DNA of 64,000 bases from Naegleria lovaniensis (taxonomy: Eukaryota > Heterolobosea > Eutetramitea > Acrasida > Naegleriidae): the NCBI RefSeq assembly GCF_003324165.1, contig NW_025407857.1:1-64000 (forward strand), given 5' to 3'. Position 1 is the first letter of the stretch; each line of letters opens with the position of its first letter. The notes under the pieces are model-generated. The model was not told the DNA's origin and searched no databases. It saw nothing but the letters and a program-made list of their open reading frames with translations. Both the position numbers and the translations under genes were made by a program. Below are positions 57,063 through 62,167 of the stretch, piece by piece.

Positions 57063-60000
57063 ATGATTCCGGAACAAGTTGGTTTGAAACAAGAACAAAC
57101 CAAACAAGAACAGGCAAAGGAGGACAATGGCACCAAGAGTAGTATTGAAAATTCAGTGATTGCCAAACGTTCTCGGGAATTCTTTCGTCTTTCTCATTAT
57201 GAACAGGCTGGAGGAAAAAGTACAACGGCCATTGAAGAGGAAAAGCAGATGAAGGAACAAGAAGCATTATCGGAGCAAGAAGTATTGAATATGTTGGTTC
57301 ATGGTGGAACAGGTAAGTAGTAGTTCCGATTTGAGCACAAGTAGTAGTTTGAATATTGTACTTTACACCACCCAACTTGGTCCGCAATGTATCTATGAAT
57401 TTATCGCGCAAATTTATGAAAACACATTGAATGCATCATGATGAAATGGATATTATTTCAAAACTATGGCCAATAGATAATGAAAACCTTCGTCAAAAAA
57501 CAAGCCTCATTCAAACCATTCATGATTCAATTATCGGAGATGATGAAGTTTTTAAATCACCTTTTGGATATAGAAAAATAACTTATTGTGACTATACAGC
57601 TTCTGGAAGGTCGCTTAGTTTTTTGGAAGAGTTCATGAAGAAGCAGGTGATGACCATGTATGCCAATACTCACACAACAAGCTCAATAACTGGTCTTCAA
57701 AGTACATTATTTAGACATGAGGCTCGTTATATTGTAAGAAATGCACTAAACTGTGGAAAGAAGGATGTTTTAATATTTACTGGAAGTGGTTCTACAAGTG
57801 CTGTAAACAAGTTGGTTCACTTGTTGGGTCTTCAGAAGGGCGGTGACATGAATTTGCTCTTGGAAAAGAGAAAATGGGAAAAAGAGTTCAATATCAAGAA
57901 TAATTTATTAGAAGACAATTTCAGACAGCCACAAACTAATTCTCCTTTTCCCTCTGACAATGACCAATTTTATGATGATTATTACAACATAGAGAATGGA
58001 GCTGATATTGACGAATTACGACCTGTTGTTTTTGTAGGACCAATGGAACATCACTCAAACATTCTTCCATGGAGAGAATCTTGTTGTCACATTGTTCCAA
58101 TCAAATTATATATACCAACGACTGGCTCTACTGCCACAAGAAACGAAGTTGCTGATTTAGAGGACTTAGAAAACAAGTTAAAACACTTCAAGAATGGAAA
58201 GAGACAATTAATTGGAGTCTTTTCAGCTGCTTCCAATGTCACAGGTGTTTTAGAGCCTAATGTGAATAAGATATCCATCTTGATGCACAAATATGGAGGT
58301 TATGTAGTTTGGGATTATGCTGCAGCAGCTCCCTATGTAAAGATGGACATGAATCCAAGAGGAGTCTCAACCGAAAATTTGGATCATACATTTGGAAAGA
58401 TTACTGAAGAAATTCCAGACGAGGACAAACCTTTATGTTACAAGGATGCTCTGGTATTCAGCCCACATAAATTCGTTGGTGGCCCAGGCACGCCAGGAGT
58501 CCTTGTTGTCAAAAAACACATGTTCAAGAATAAGATTCCAGAAAATCCTGGAGGAGGTACAGTATTCTTTGTGACCGATAGAGATCATCACTATGTGAAA
58601 AAGTCATACGAAAGAGAAGAAGGTGGTACACCAGAAATTTTGGGATCAGTCAGATGTGGTCTTGTTTTCCAACTTCGTCAAGCAGTCGGTACTCAATTAA
58701 TTTCTCAAATAGAGACAGATTTTACGAATCGTGCCTTCAACGAATTCAAGTCTGTCAAGAACTTGGTAATTCTTGGCCATGGTCAAAATACTCCTCGCCT
58801 TCCAATTTTCAGCTTCCTTATTAGACACCATAATTCATTCCTTCCATCTACCTTCGTGTCAATATTGTTGAATGATTTGTTTGGTATTCAAACTAGATCT
58901 GGTTGCGCTTGTGCTGGCCCATTTGCTCACTTCCTCTTTGGGCTCAAGTACAGCGAATCTAAAAACCTTGAAAATGTGCTCTTGTCAGATGATGATTATG
59001 AGTTTTTGAGACCTGGTTTCGTGAGATTGAATTTCAATTACTTTATGGATGAGGATACATTTGTATACATTACAAAGTCTGTTAAATTTGTTGCAGAACA
59101 TGGATACAAATTTTTACCATATTATTACTTTTATCCAGAAACAGGAGAATGGTTGCACAATCAAAACAGAAAATTCCCCACCAGAAGATGGCTACAAAAC
59201 ATTTCATACAAGAATGGAAAACTCGAATATAGACAAGAAATTGGCTACAAGATTACTTCCCCAAGCAAGGAATATGAAAAGTATTTAAAACATGCTGAAG
59301 AAATGGCTGATCAAGCAGTTAAGGAATTCTCTAATCCTAAATTCAGAATTGTTGACCAAGATTTACTACTACTCAACAAGACTAATACTAATTTATTGAA
59401 AGAAAACAGCATTATCAATAAGGAGAACCTTCCAACAAAAGAAGAAGAAATTGATCATGCCGAAAAATGGAGATGGTTTGTCTTCCCTAAGCAAATTGTG
59501 GAAGAGTTACAAGGAGGTGACATTCATTCAATTTTCAAAGCTTCTTATTTGAAGCCATGGACAGGTTTCGCAGTTTCAGAACAATCAGTTTCTTCAAACG
59601 AAACTGCCTCCACACAAAGTCGTCTCATTCACTCCACTCTCACTTCAGAAATTAATCCAGTTTCATCTTCGCTCATTGGAGTAGAGTTACCATCATCATC
59701 GACACAATCAACAGAAACGAATGTACAAGTGGAACCTTCTTCATCTACTCTACCTACGTCATCTATTGATGGTTTTGATATTGGAGAAGATGATTTTGGA
59801 GGAGATTGGAAAAAAGAAAGTACTGCCAAACCTTATGTTCAAAAACGACCAGTCATGTACAGCAGACCTGTCAATGTTTTTGATCATGAGACCAACAAGG
59901 AAATTATACTCTCTGACGAGGATGACAAGAAACGTCGAGAGGCACTCAAGAAACACTACAAAATGTGGCCAAAAGTTGATGCTAAAACCATTATGGGACC

Positions 60001-60886
60001 TGTAAAGAGAGCCATTCGTGAGTACGACATGATTCGTGACGGGGATCGTTTGCTTTTAGGATTATCTGGTGGTAAAGATTCCCTCACTTTGCTTCATGTT
60101 TTGCACGCACTTCAATACAGCAATTTGGGAGTGAAATTTGAATTTGGTGCCTGTACAGTGGATCCACAAACAGCATCCTATGATCCTTCTCCACTCATTA
60201 ACTATTGTAAACAATTAGGTGTTCCATATTTCTATGAATCTCAATCTGTCATTGAGGGAGCTAAGGAATGTAATGCATCGTCTATTTGTGCATGGTGTGC
60301 CAGAATGAAGAGAGGAATTTTGTACAACACTGCAAGAAGAGAAGGGTATAATGTATTGGTTTTGGGACAACATTGTGACGATTTGGCAGAGAGTTTTATC
60401 ATGTCCATTTTCCATAATGGTTATATGAGAACCATGAAGGCTCATTACACAATTGATGCTGGAGATTTACGTGTGATTAGACCTTTGATTTATGTCAGAG
60501 AGAGCGAGACAAAGAAGTTTGCATGGGAAAACAAGTTACCTGTCATTAATGAGAATTGCCCTGCTTGCTTTGAAATTCCAAAAGAAAGAGCACGCATCAA
60601 GACACTCCTCGCCAATCAAGAGCTTATTTATCCACAATTATTCCTTAGTTTACAAACAGCCATGAAACCACTCATGAGCAAAGATATTGAAGTGGAGGGA
60701 CACAAAAAATTCAAGAGTGCCAAGCCCAAGTTTGAAACAATCACACAATACATTAAGGGATACAATGCCAACGAAGGTTCTTCCAGTGATGACTCTATGG
60801 TTTGCAGAAGAAAAACAATGGAGGAGGACGACGAGTTCAATGATGACGACGATGTTGGAAACGTTGTCACCAGTAAGAAGGAGTAA
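57063..60886 (+). CDS. Cysteine desulfurase-TtcA tRNA-thiolase fusion
   Basis: Preferred model: exons 57063..57312 and 57477..60886 (164-nt intron, phase 1), 1219 residues; an ATG at 57431 gives an unspliced 1151-residue alternative. The N-terminal part is a class-V aminotransferase/cysteine desulfurase: HTTSSITG, VVWDYAAAAPY (PLP Asp), SPHKFVGGPGTPG (PLP Lys) and RSGCACAGP as candidate persulfide Cys. After a Ser/Thr linker the C-terminal roughly 300 residues are a TtcA-type PP-loop enzyme: LLGLSGGKDSLTLLH, iron-sulfur cysteines in CAWC, third Cys in NCPACFE, LGQHCDDLAESF. TtcA makes 2-thiocytidine in tRNA. One chain thus holds sulfur donor and acceptor, implying direct persulfide channelling. 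Both active sites look complete. Confidence 0.92.
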
Positions 60887-60983: not shown

Positions 60984-62167
60984 TTAAATATCATTCAAAT
61001 ATCTTGAAATTGCTTCGACCATCAAAAAAGTCACAGCATTCACTGGTACTGCACGTACCAATGTAGGTGCTAATCCCTTAAATAAGGATTTAGACTTTCT
61101 ACACTCATTAAAAACGTCAATCACCTTCACACTGTATTCTCCTCTGGCAGCTGCTACTGGAGATCTTGATTGAATGAGACTTTTCACAACATCGGTTTGG
61201 TAGCATAGTCCCCAAGCACTTAGACCTGCCAAGCCACCACTCGTTAAAATCACTCTCCAATCAGAACGCAATTCTTCAATCTTCTTCTTAATCTGCTCTT
61301 CGTCAGCTCCTTCCATCTGCTTGGAGGCTAAATATCTCGAAAATCGTGTTTTACATTGTTCATAGGTTGCAAAATAAACTCCATTAAAACTCAACTCTCG
61401 AATCAGAGTAGACGAATAACCATGATAAATTCCTCTTAAACCTCCTTCATATTTCCAAATAAATTTAGCACAATCCATAAATCCTCTTCGACCCAAAGTG
61501 CCAGAGGTGGCTCGTGTGGTGATATGATCCGTTGAGGTTTGAAGTCTAATCTTAATAAGCTCTGTTGGACAAACCACAAAAGCAATACAAAAACCAGCCA
61601 ATGAACCACTTGCAAACTGAATTGGAATTGAGGTTCTACGAATCATGGTCTGTTCTTCCTCACTTAAATTTCCAAGAAATGTAGAGAGTACATTCGGAAG
61701 CAATCCGTTATAGACTCCAAACAAGATACAATTGTTGATCGCTTCTCCAATCAGAGGAGAAAGTAATCCCTTGAAAAGAGAACGAGCTCCTTCTTTTGCT
61801 ACTGCTTCTTTCAAAAAGTGAATGGCACCGAATTTTGAGGAAGTTTGTGTTTGAAGCCTTACACGGATGGTATCTGAAATGAACAAACGTGAGAAAGATT
61901 CCATTTGAATCCATAATTTCATCATCAATGAATGGTGATGATTTAAATAATTTTCCTTACTTACCTAATGGATGTCCAACAAATATTCCCGAGCTGTTGG
62001 AGTTTAGCCATGTGTGATTAGAAAAAAGAATAAAGAACTTACATTCCACCAATACTTCCTGCTACACATTCCTTTCCAAAATTCTTCATCAATTGTCCAA
62101 AAGATACTGATTCCGATGATACCACTACTTGTGATGATGTAGTAATTTCCTGTGGTGATGATTCCAT
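60984..62167 (-). CDS. Mitochondrial carrier (SLC25 family)
   Basis: Three exons, 62043..62167, 61965..61993 (29 nt) and 60984..61873; phases agree and give 347 residues. Splicing builds the first carrier signature HPLDTIRVRLQTQ. The second is CPTELIKIRLQ, and the third, degenerate, YQTDVVKSLIQ. Three roughly 100-residue repeats with six helices are visible. The CPTE second signature is typical of the carnitine/acylcarnitine and ornithine/basic amino acid branch (SLC25A20/A15/A29), so a substrate in that range is inferred. Located in the inner membrane. A Ser/Thr-rich N-terminal extension of about 28 residues precedes helix 1. Confidence 0.92.

Follow-up and report, generated by a model that had tools for sequence, protein, structure and literature searches.

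A cysteine desulfurase fused to a TtcA-family protein in Naegleria lovaniensis, a candidate self-supplied tRNA thiolation enzyme

How sulfur reaches the iron–sulfur (Fe–S)-dependent enzymes that thiolate tRNA is unsettled, and a natural fusion of a sulfur donor with a sulfur acceptor bears on the question. Such a fusion is encoded in the stretch analysed here (the window), 64,000 nt of the Naegleria lovaniensis assembly GCF_003324165.1 (contig NW_025407857.1, positions 1 to 64,000), in which one gene joins a cysteine desulfurase to a relative of the tRNA thiolation enzyme TtcA. What does this gene make? The answer we prefer, with modest confidence, is a self-supplied bifunctional enzyme, built from two bacterial-type parts and probably cytosolic, that would form 2-thiocytidine at tRNA position 32 (s2C32).

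One reading frame holds both enzyme halves

The open reading frame (ORF) at 57431–60886 (+) runs for 1151 codons without a stop and contains both halves; residues are numbered below in this 1151-amino-acid (aa) form. Its parts are as follows.

57494..59230, + strand: cysteine desulfurase half, residues ~22–600 (Pfam Aminotran_5, tblastn relatives, AlphaFold2 model)
59231..59632, + strand: C-terminal extension of the desulfurase, residues ~601–734 (sequence reading; model confidence low from 637)
59633..59938, + strand: linker, residues 735–836 (Ser/Thr/Glu/Asp-rich composition)
59939..60724, + strand: predicted TtcA half (CPAC subfamily), residues 837–1098 (Pfam, NCBIfam, identity to bacterial proteins, tree)

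At the stop frequency of the window's own six frames (0.051 per codon), an open run of 1151 codons would arise by chance with a probability of about 6e-27; the GC content of the window is 0.34–0.40. In the same protein Pfam finds Aminotran_5 (4e-31, in three stretches) and ATP_bind_3 (2e-17, residues 874–1040), and the top two NCBIfam models for the fusion are TtcA and SufS, each scoring under its cut-off. A preliminary description of this DNA had claimed a single polypeptide with desulfurase and TtcA halves in a eukaryotic genome, and as sequence the one-polypeptide fusion is confirmed. An artefact, either an assembly join or two genes taken as one, is very improbable: the gene comes from one assembly and from DNA only, but the linker is crossed without a stop and without any need for a frame change.

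The desulfurase half

By sequence and predicted structure, the first half has the SufS fold and belongs to a subfamily other than the curated SufS. The residues expected to bind pyridoxal 5′-phosphate (PLP) and to carry the persulfide stand at SufS positions.

58469..58471, + strand: Lys347, PLP-binding lysine by alignment (SPHK, residues 344–347; aligns with the SufS SGHK lysine)
58910..58912, + strand: Cys494, persulfide cysteine by alignment (GCACAGP, residues 491–497; aligns with the SufS GHHCAMP cysteine)

Lys347, Cys494 and Cys492, two residues N-terminal of Cys494, are invariant in all 29 aligned sequences (the window protein and 28 bacterial relatives). The best PDB sequence matches of this half are SufS/CsdA-type enzymes. 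An AlphaFold2 model of residues 1–740 (mean predicted local distance difference test score, pLDDT, 71.5, with residues 637–740 below 50; predicted template-modelling score, pTM, 0.74) retrieved cysteine desulfurases and selenocysteine lyases in Foldseek, mostly SufS, with target template-modelling scores of 0.81–0.88 in the 50 matches listed. The lysine of SPHKFVGG and the cysteine of GCACAGP noted in the preliminary description are present, as are the PP-loop and both CxxC motifs of the TtcA half. The IscS label of that description does not fit, as both sequence and fold match the SufS/CsdA type best and a canonical IscS is encoded elsewhere in the genome (654 bits, above cut-off). Because of that IscS, the fusion is not the genome's sole desulfurase.

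At least 589 of 591 candidate stretches in species genomes were confirmed as relatives of the desulfurase. The loci retrieved were the best 80 of >589 relatives, with 39–45% identity over residues ~22–638 (tblastn). These relatives form a distinct bacterial family (“aminotransferase class V,” for example in the Porticoccus locus L049 and in Myxococcota loci), in which the half is placed. A more distant relative, with 28% identity, lies on a 306-kb IMG/VR contig (L097:5001-6194).

In 3 of 85 loci, L015 (Rhizobium plasmid), L049 (Porticoccus) and L055 (Pseudomaricurvus), the desulfurase relative is followed by genes for a TauE/SafE exporter and a metallo-beta-lactamase-fold protein, in either order. 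The L049 metallo-beta-lactamase-fold protein, the sole one compared, resembles the human persulfide dioxygenase ETHE1 (PDB 4chl, 2e-58). A cluster of Lrp/AsnC-type regulators is present in 8 of the 85 loci, divergent and just upstream in seven (family checked in Pfam for L049). This company of sulfite exporter, ETHE1-like protein and regulator would suit an enzyme forming sulfane sulfur from cysteine, and the gene groups of L015, L049 and L055 likely form a cysteine-to-sulfite route. The conserved residues, the fold and the operon partners seen in some bacterial relatives lead us to infer that the window half is an active desulfurase.

These relatives bear on the alternative that the halves are joined yet act independently, the desulfurase serving cysteine breakdown or general sulfur supply while TtcA is fed by IscS and the cytosolic Fe–S systems. 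Bacterial desulfurase relatives occur without TtcA, a few of them in sulfite/persulfide-type operons, and the genome has its own IscS, as this alternative would have it. However, a donor fused to an enzyme that uses sulfur points to coupling, and an unfused paralog (described below) is already available for such roles. We regard independent action as distinctly unlikely.

The TtcA half

The second half has the motifs expected of TtcA.

60065..60082, + strand: PP-loop SGGKDS, residues 879–884 (motif reading)
60287..60298, + strand: first CxxC, CAWC at 953, expected Fe–S site (motif reading)
60557..60568, + strand: second CxxC, CPAC at 1043, expected Fe–S site (CNLC in E. coli TtcA)

Residues 837–1151 contain exactly two CxxC motifs and no extra pairs of the Ncs6/TtuA kind. 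Two such motifs mark group I (PMC3980101), and our two-CxxC assignment rests on a statement in PMC5372739. PMC5372745 places the third cluster cysteine of E. coli TtcA at residue 222, at odds with the E. coli TtcA copy that we examined, in which the second CxxC lies at 210–213.

Identity to E. coli TtcA is only 32–34%, and both the window half and bacterial genes of its type score below the NCBIfam TtcA cut-off. As several products are known within the TtcA/TtuA family (PMC5372739, PMC10067955), these values would also suit a self-supplied thiolation enzyme with a product other than s2C32, acting on another tRNA position, base or RNA and sharing only the PP-loop/Fe–S chemistry. On the other hand, the window half has only two CxxC motifs, as in TtcA, and both it and the CPAC-type proteins scanned score best with the NCBIfam TtcA model. 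Moreover, the Ncs6-type gene expected for 2-thiouridine at position 34 is separate: it lies on a different contig (L011) and encodes a protein with a zinc ribbon and five CxxC/H motifs that scores best with the NCBIfam model NcsA (193 bits, below cut-off). Together with the mutual exclusion described in the next section, this makes a different product rather unlikely in our judgement.

The TtcA label of the preliminary description therefore holds for the family, and needs amending for the subfamily, which is CPAC-type and not that of E. coli. Its wording “TtcA thiolase” is better replaced by tRNA thiolation enzyme.

A CPAC-type TtcA subfamily in bacteria

Twenty bacterial loci returned by the searches share 55–61% identity with the window TtcA domain and have the same CPACF motif, whereas other TtcA matches reach at most 39–40% (118 of 187 Myxococcota genomes; 16 further Pseudomonadota genomes listed). 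Two outliers, with 59% and 50% identity, stood out among 398 Pseudomonadota genomes, and a profile built from them located the subfamily in 118 of the 369 genomes searched in the class to which one outlier (G483) belongs. With only these two in the wider Pseudomonadota sample, that class seems to be where the subfamily is concentrated.

The window domain is nested in 22 CPAC-type rows, apart from 30 other TtcA rows, in a 54-row tree. Support by the Shimodaira–Hasegawa-like approximate likelihood ratio test (SH-aLRT) is 98 for the whole CPAC clade and 89 for an inner group of 21; the tree is a quick one without bootstrap, and two of the 22 rows come from the same genome. Given the quick tree and the long window branch, the exact sister of the window domain is unsure. 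Judged by clade and CPACF motif, the TtcA half belongs to the CPAC-type subfamily and not to the classic E. coli type.

Classic TtcA above the cut-off of the NCBIfam model NF007972 was found in none of 20 CPAC-bearing genomes, each of which has one match (196–230 bits) that is the CPAC gene itself. Among 10 genomes of the same class lacking the CPAC type, six have classic TtcA (406–481 bits) and four have no match at 1e-20 (Fisher p 0.0004, with genomes treated as independent though they are not). Eighteen of the positive genomes were picked from the 118-genome list; G483 and G265 came from the Pseudomonadota scan, G265 not being placed in the class. The 10 negative genomes were drawn from the first 20 listed without a match at 1e-60. 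This mutual exclusion supports, short of proof, a shared function of CPAC-type and classic TtcA.

Most bacterial CPAC-type frames are 246–345 aa long. At L149:1286-3148 (-), a single 621-aa frame has an aldose 1-epimerase domain followed by a CPAC-type TtcA, another possible TtcA fusion. Joined to such a partner, L149 indicates that joins of this kind need not mean coupling, and it is a point for independent action of the two Naegleria halves.

Origin of the fusion

Bacteria appear to hold the two parts separately. The 81 open frames examined for the desulfurase (80 bacterial, one viral) end with the desulfurase module and have no further domain, and a desulfurase is joined to TtcA in none of the 20 CPAC-type loci. 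The desulfurase half had no match at E<=0.001 in the first two CPAC-type genomes, and none of the 14 recurrent neighbour clusters of 17 CPAC-type loci was recognised by reading as a desulfurase; the neighbour survey, which kept a single frame at each place, missed even the TtcA frame in 7 of the 17 loci and may have missed neighbours as well. No plasmid or phage record had one place covering 80% of the fusion protein, and Fibrobacterota gave no match at the limit set. Three long frames at TtcA matches (795–842 aa) and three in the CPAC-type search (520–663 aa) fall outside the fusion survey. Because of these six a bacterial fusion may still exist, although chance long frames are common in GC-rich genomes.

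The Naegleria genome itself has an unfused desulfurase paralog on contig C3 (L009:1906-4900, -). It is apparently split by introns, and the hydrophobic segment at its end may be a membrane anchor; no TtcA was found in the stretch examined around it. Part of the extension that follows the fused desulfurase seems to recur in this paralog (WRWFVFP...EEL versus LRWYLLP...MEL). The two are sisters in the tree (SH-aLRT 99.6), although the program flags both branches as long, and such joins are often false; with branches of this length, two separate acquisitions are also possible. The simplest reading of the sequences is that a bacterial-type desulfurase was duplicated in this lineage and that one copy was then joined to a CPAC-type TtcA.

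Two further places in the genome have desulfurase-like sequence. A third, diverged copy (L010:2142-4113, +) reads DASK in place of SPHK and has a frame that seems broken near the Cys loop; it is likely decayed or non-catalytic. At G000:C4:161407-162819 (-), an IscS-like match in two pieces lies within an open frame of 823 residues, which may encode a second desulfurase fusion.

Proposed reaction and the case against it

In the self-supplied enzyme that we prefer, Lys347 would bind PLP and Cys494 would take the sulfur of L-cysteine as a persulfide, with alanine leaving. Three cysteines of the two CxxC motifs would ligate a [4Fe-4S] cluster, and C2 of a tRNA cytidine, most probably that at position 32, would be adenylated by the SGGKDS loop with ATP. 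Sulfide or persulfide from the adjoining desulfurase would load the open iron of the cluster and from there yield 2-thiocytidine (s2C). The flexible linker would hold donor and acceptor near each other, so that neither IscS nor a separate carrier would be needed. The enzyme activities, the cluster, the tRNA target, the sulfur hand-over and the localisation are in each case predicted features.

The TtcA reaction mechanism is still described as unclear in a review, in which one iron of the cluster is proposed to bind sulfide transiently (PMC5372739), so a local sulfide supply and a persulfide relay are equally likely. Persulfide may be channelled directly, as the preliminary description had it, sulfide may be set free, or the two halves may act independently. 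We are more doubtful of the stronger proposal, that this is a eukaryotic self-sufficient s2C synthase, joined from two enzymes of separate bacterial descent, that obtains its sulfur directly from cysteine and does without IscS, Urm1 and other carriers; we put it forward only tentatively.

Several observations weigh against the preferred reading. The fusion protein is known here from its DNA alone. The desulfurase half scores 109 bits with the NCBIfam SufS model TIGR01979 (cut-off 475.1), and the bacterial relative L049 is likewise below that cut-off at 128 bits. SufS-type desulfurases usually require a SufE/SufU partner, and Pfam finds no such partner domain in the fusion. With NF007972 the TtcA half reaches 189 bits against a cut-off of 272, compared with 514 bits for the E. 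coli TtcA copy. Sulfite/persulfide neighbours were not seen in 82 of the 85 desulfurase loci, some of which have little flank, and the unfused L009 paralog lets this type of desulfurase hold other roles.

The search for the same fusion in other genomes, which the preliminary description had suggested, covered prokaryotic and viral sequences and returned none. The flanks of 82 desulfurase loci (80 bacterial, two viral) contained no TtcA by tblastn (E<=1); at least 1 kb of flank was available downstream in 74 and upstream in 69 of the 80 bacterial loci. The same tblastn recovered 34 of 36 control loci, missing the Ncs6-type locus of Naegleria itself and L137, a second match that is weak. When 20 genomes were searched with the whole protein, nine had both halves, in all nine on different contigs.

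The reviews consulted list s2C for bacteria and archaea only (PMC7694415, PMC5372745), and in the literature consulted on TtcA we found no CPAC-type TtcA shown to make s2C. A table in PMC5372717 has dashes beside TtcA where other rows give human and yeast proteins. The excerpts that our literature search returned contained no report of a desulfurase–TtcA fusion or of eukaryotic s2C, and none paired Naegleria with TtcA. The gene was earlier called unusual in a eukaryote; this agrees with the reviews that restrict s2C to bacteria and archaea, and it extends as far as this literature and the prokaryotic and viral searches.

If the stronger proposal is true, this would be the first eukaryotic s2C pathway known to us, and an all-in-one form of a multi-protein bacterial reaction; s2C in Naegleria tRNA would extend the known range of the nucleoside to eukaryotes. 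The bacterial kin would then be a second TtcA lineage replacing the classic one, and the CPAC-type subfamily would explain possible s2C in bacteria without classic TtcA. The fusion also offers one purifiable protein whose donor and acceptor cysteines can be altered separately.

Gene structure and surroundings

Upstream of the enzyme halves, the gene can be read with or without an intron.

57063..57312, + strand: proposed exon 1 (open from ATG 57063; phase matches exon 2)
57313..57476, + strand: proposed intron, 164 nt, GTAAGT...TAG (inferred from consensus ends)
57477..60886, + strand: exon 2, with both enzyme halves (alternative, unspliced: ORF 57431–60886 from ATG 57431)

The two-exon span 57063–60886 given in the preliminary description is consistent with the DNA: splicing at the GTAAGT...TAG intron gives a product of 1219 aa with a single terminal stop. 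Exon 1 comprises 83 codons plus 1 nt and is Gln/Glu-rich; no mitochondrial targeting peptide is evident in it by eye, no predictor having been applied. Translation may start at ATG 57063 or at ATG 57431, the DNA alone being compatible with both, and in nearly all of the 28 aligned bacterial relatives the match leaves out residues 1–21 of the 1151-aa form. Exon 2 carries both halves, so the fusion does not depend on the splice model.

A mitochondrial carrier gene (60984–61928, −; Pfam Mito_carr in three stretches) lies shortly downstream of the fusion gene, in convergent orientation. No Rfam families were found near the fusion gene, and no tRNA genes within the window.

Comparison with known systems

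The TtcA and IscS of E. coli and Salmonella, which make s2C32, share with the window gene the PP-loop, two CxxC motifs and cysteine sulfur delivered through a PLP desulfurase. There, however, they are separate proteins, whereas here a SufS-fold donor and a CPAC-type acceptor would form one chain; IscS is a desulfurase of the class I type. The bacterial CPAC-type TtcA proteins have the CPACF motif and clade in common with the window half, but none of the 20 loci returned has a desulfurase joined to it. In the same way, the bacterial SufS-fold family shares the SPHK lysine and GCxCAGP cysteines with the window half, but no TtcA partner was found in its 81 open frames or in the flanks retrieved.

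Fusions of a desulfurase with a partner are an already known kind. In ABA3/MOCOS a desulfurase is fused to a sulfur-using enzyme, and the target is the molybdenum cofactor. The Monocercomonoides SufS-SufU (PMC6006210) is also a eukaryotic, acquired SufS-type desulfurase fused to a sulfur-taking partner; that partner is an Fe–S scaffold, while in the window fusion it is a predicted tRNA enzyme. In the DndA/DndC system (PMC10853773), a desulfurase works with a PP-loop, Fe–S enzyme, as we propose for the window halves, but the genes are separate and the target is the DNA backbone, whereas in Naegleria the two halves are fused.

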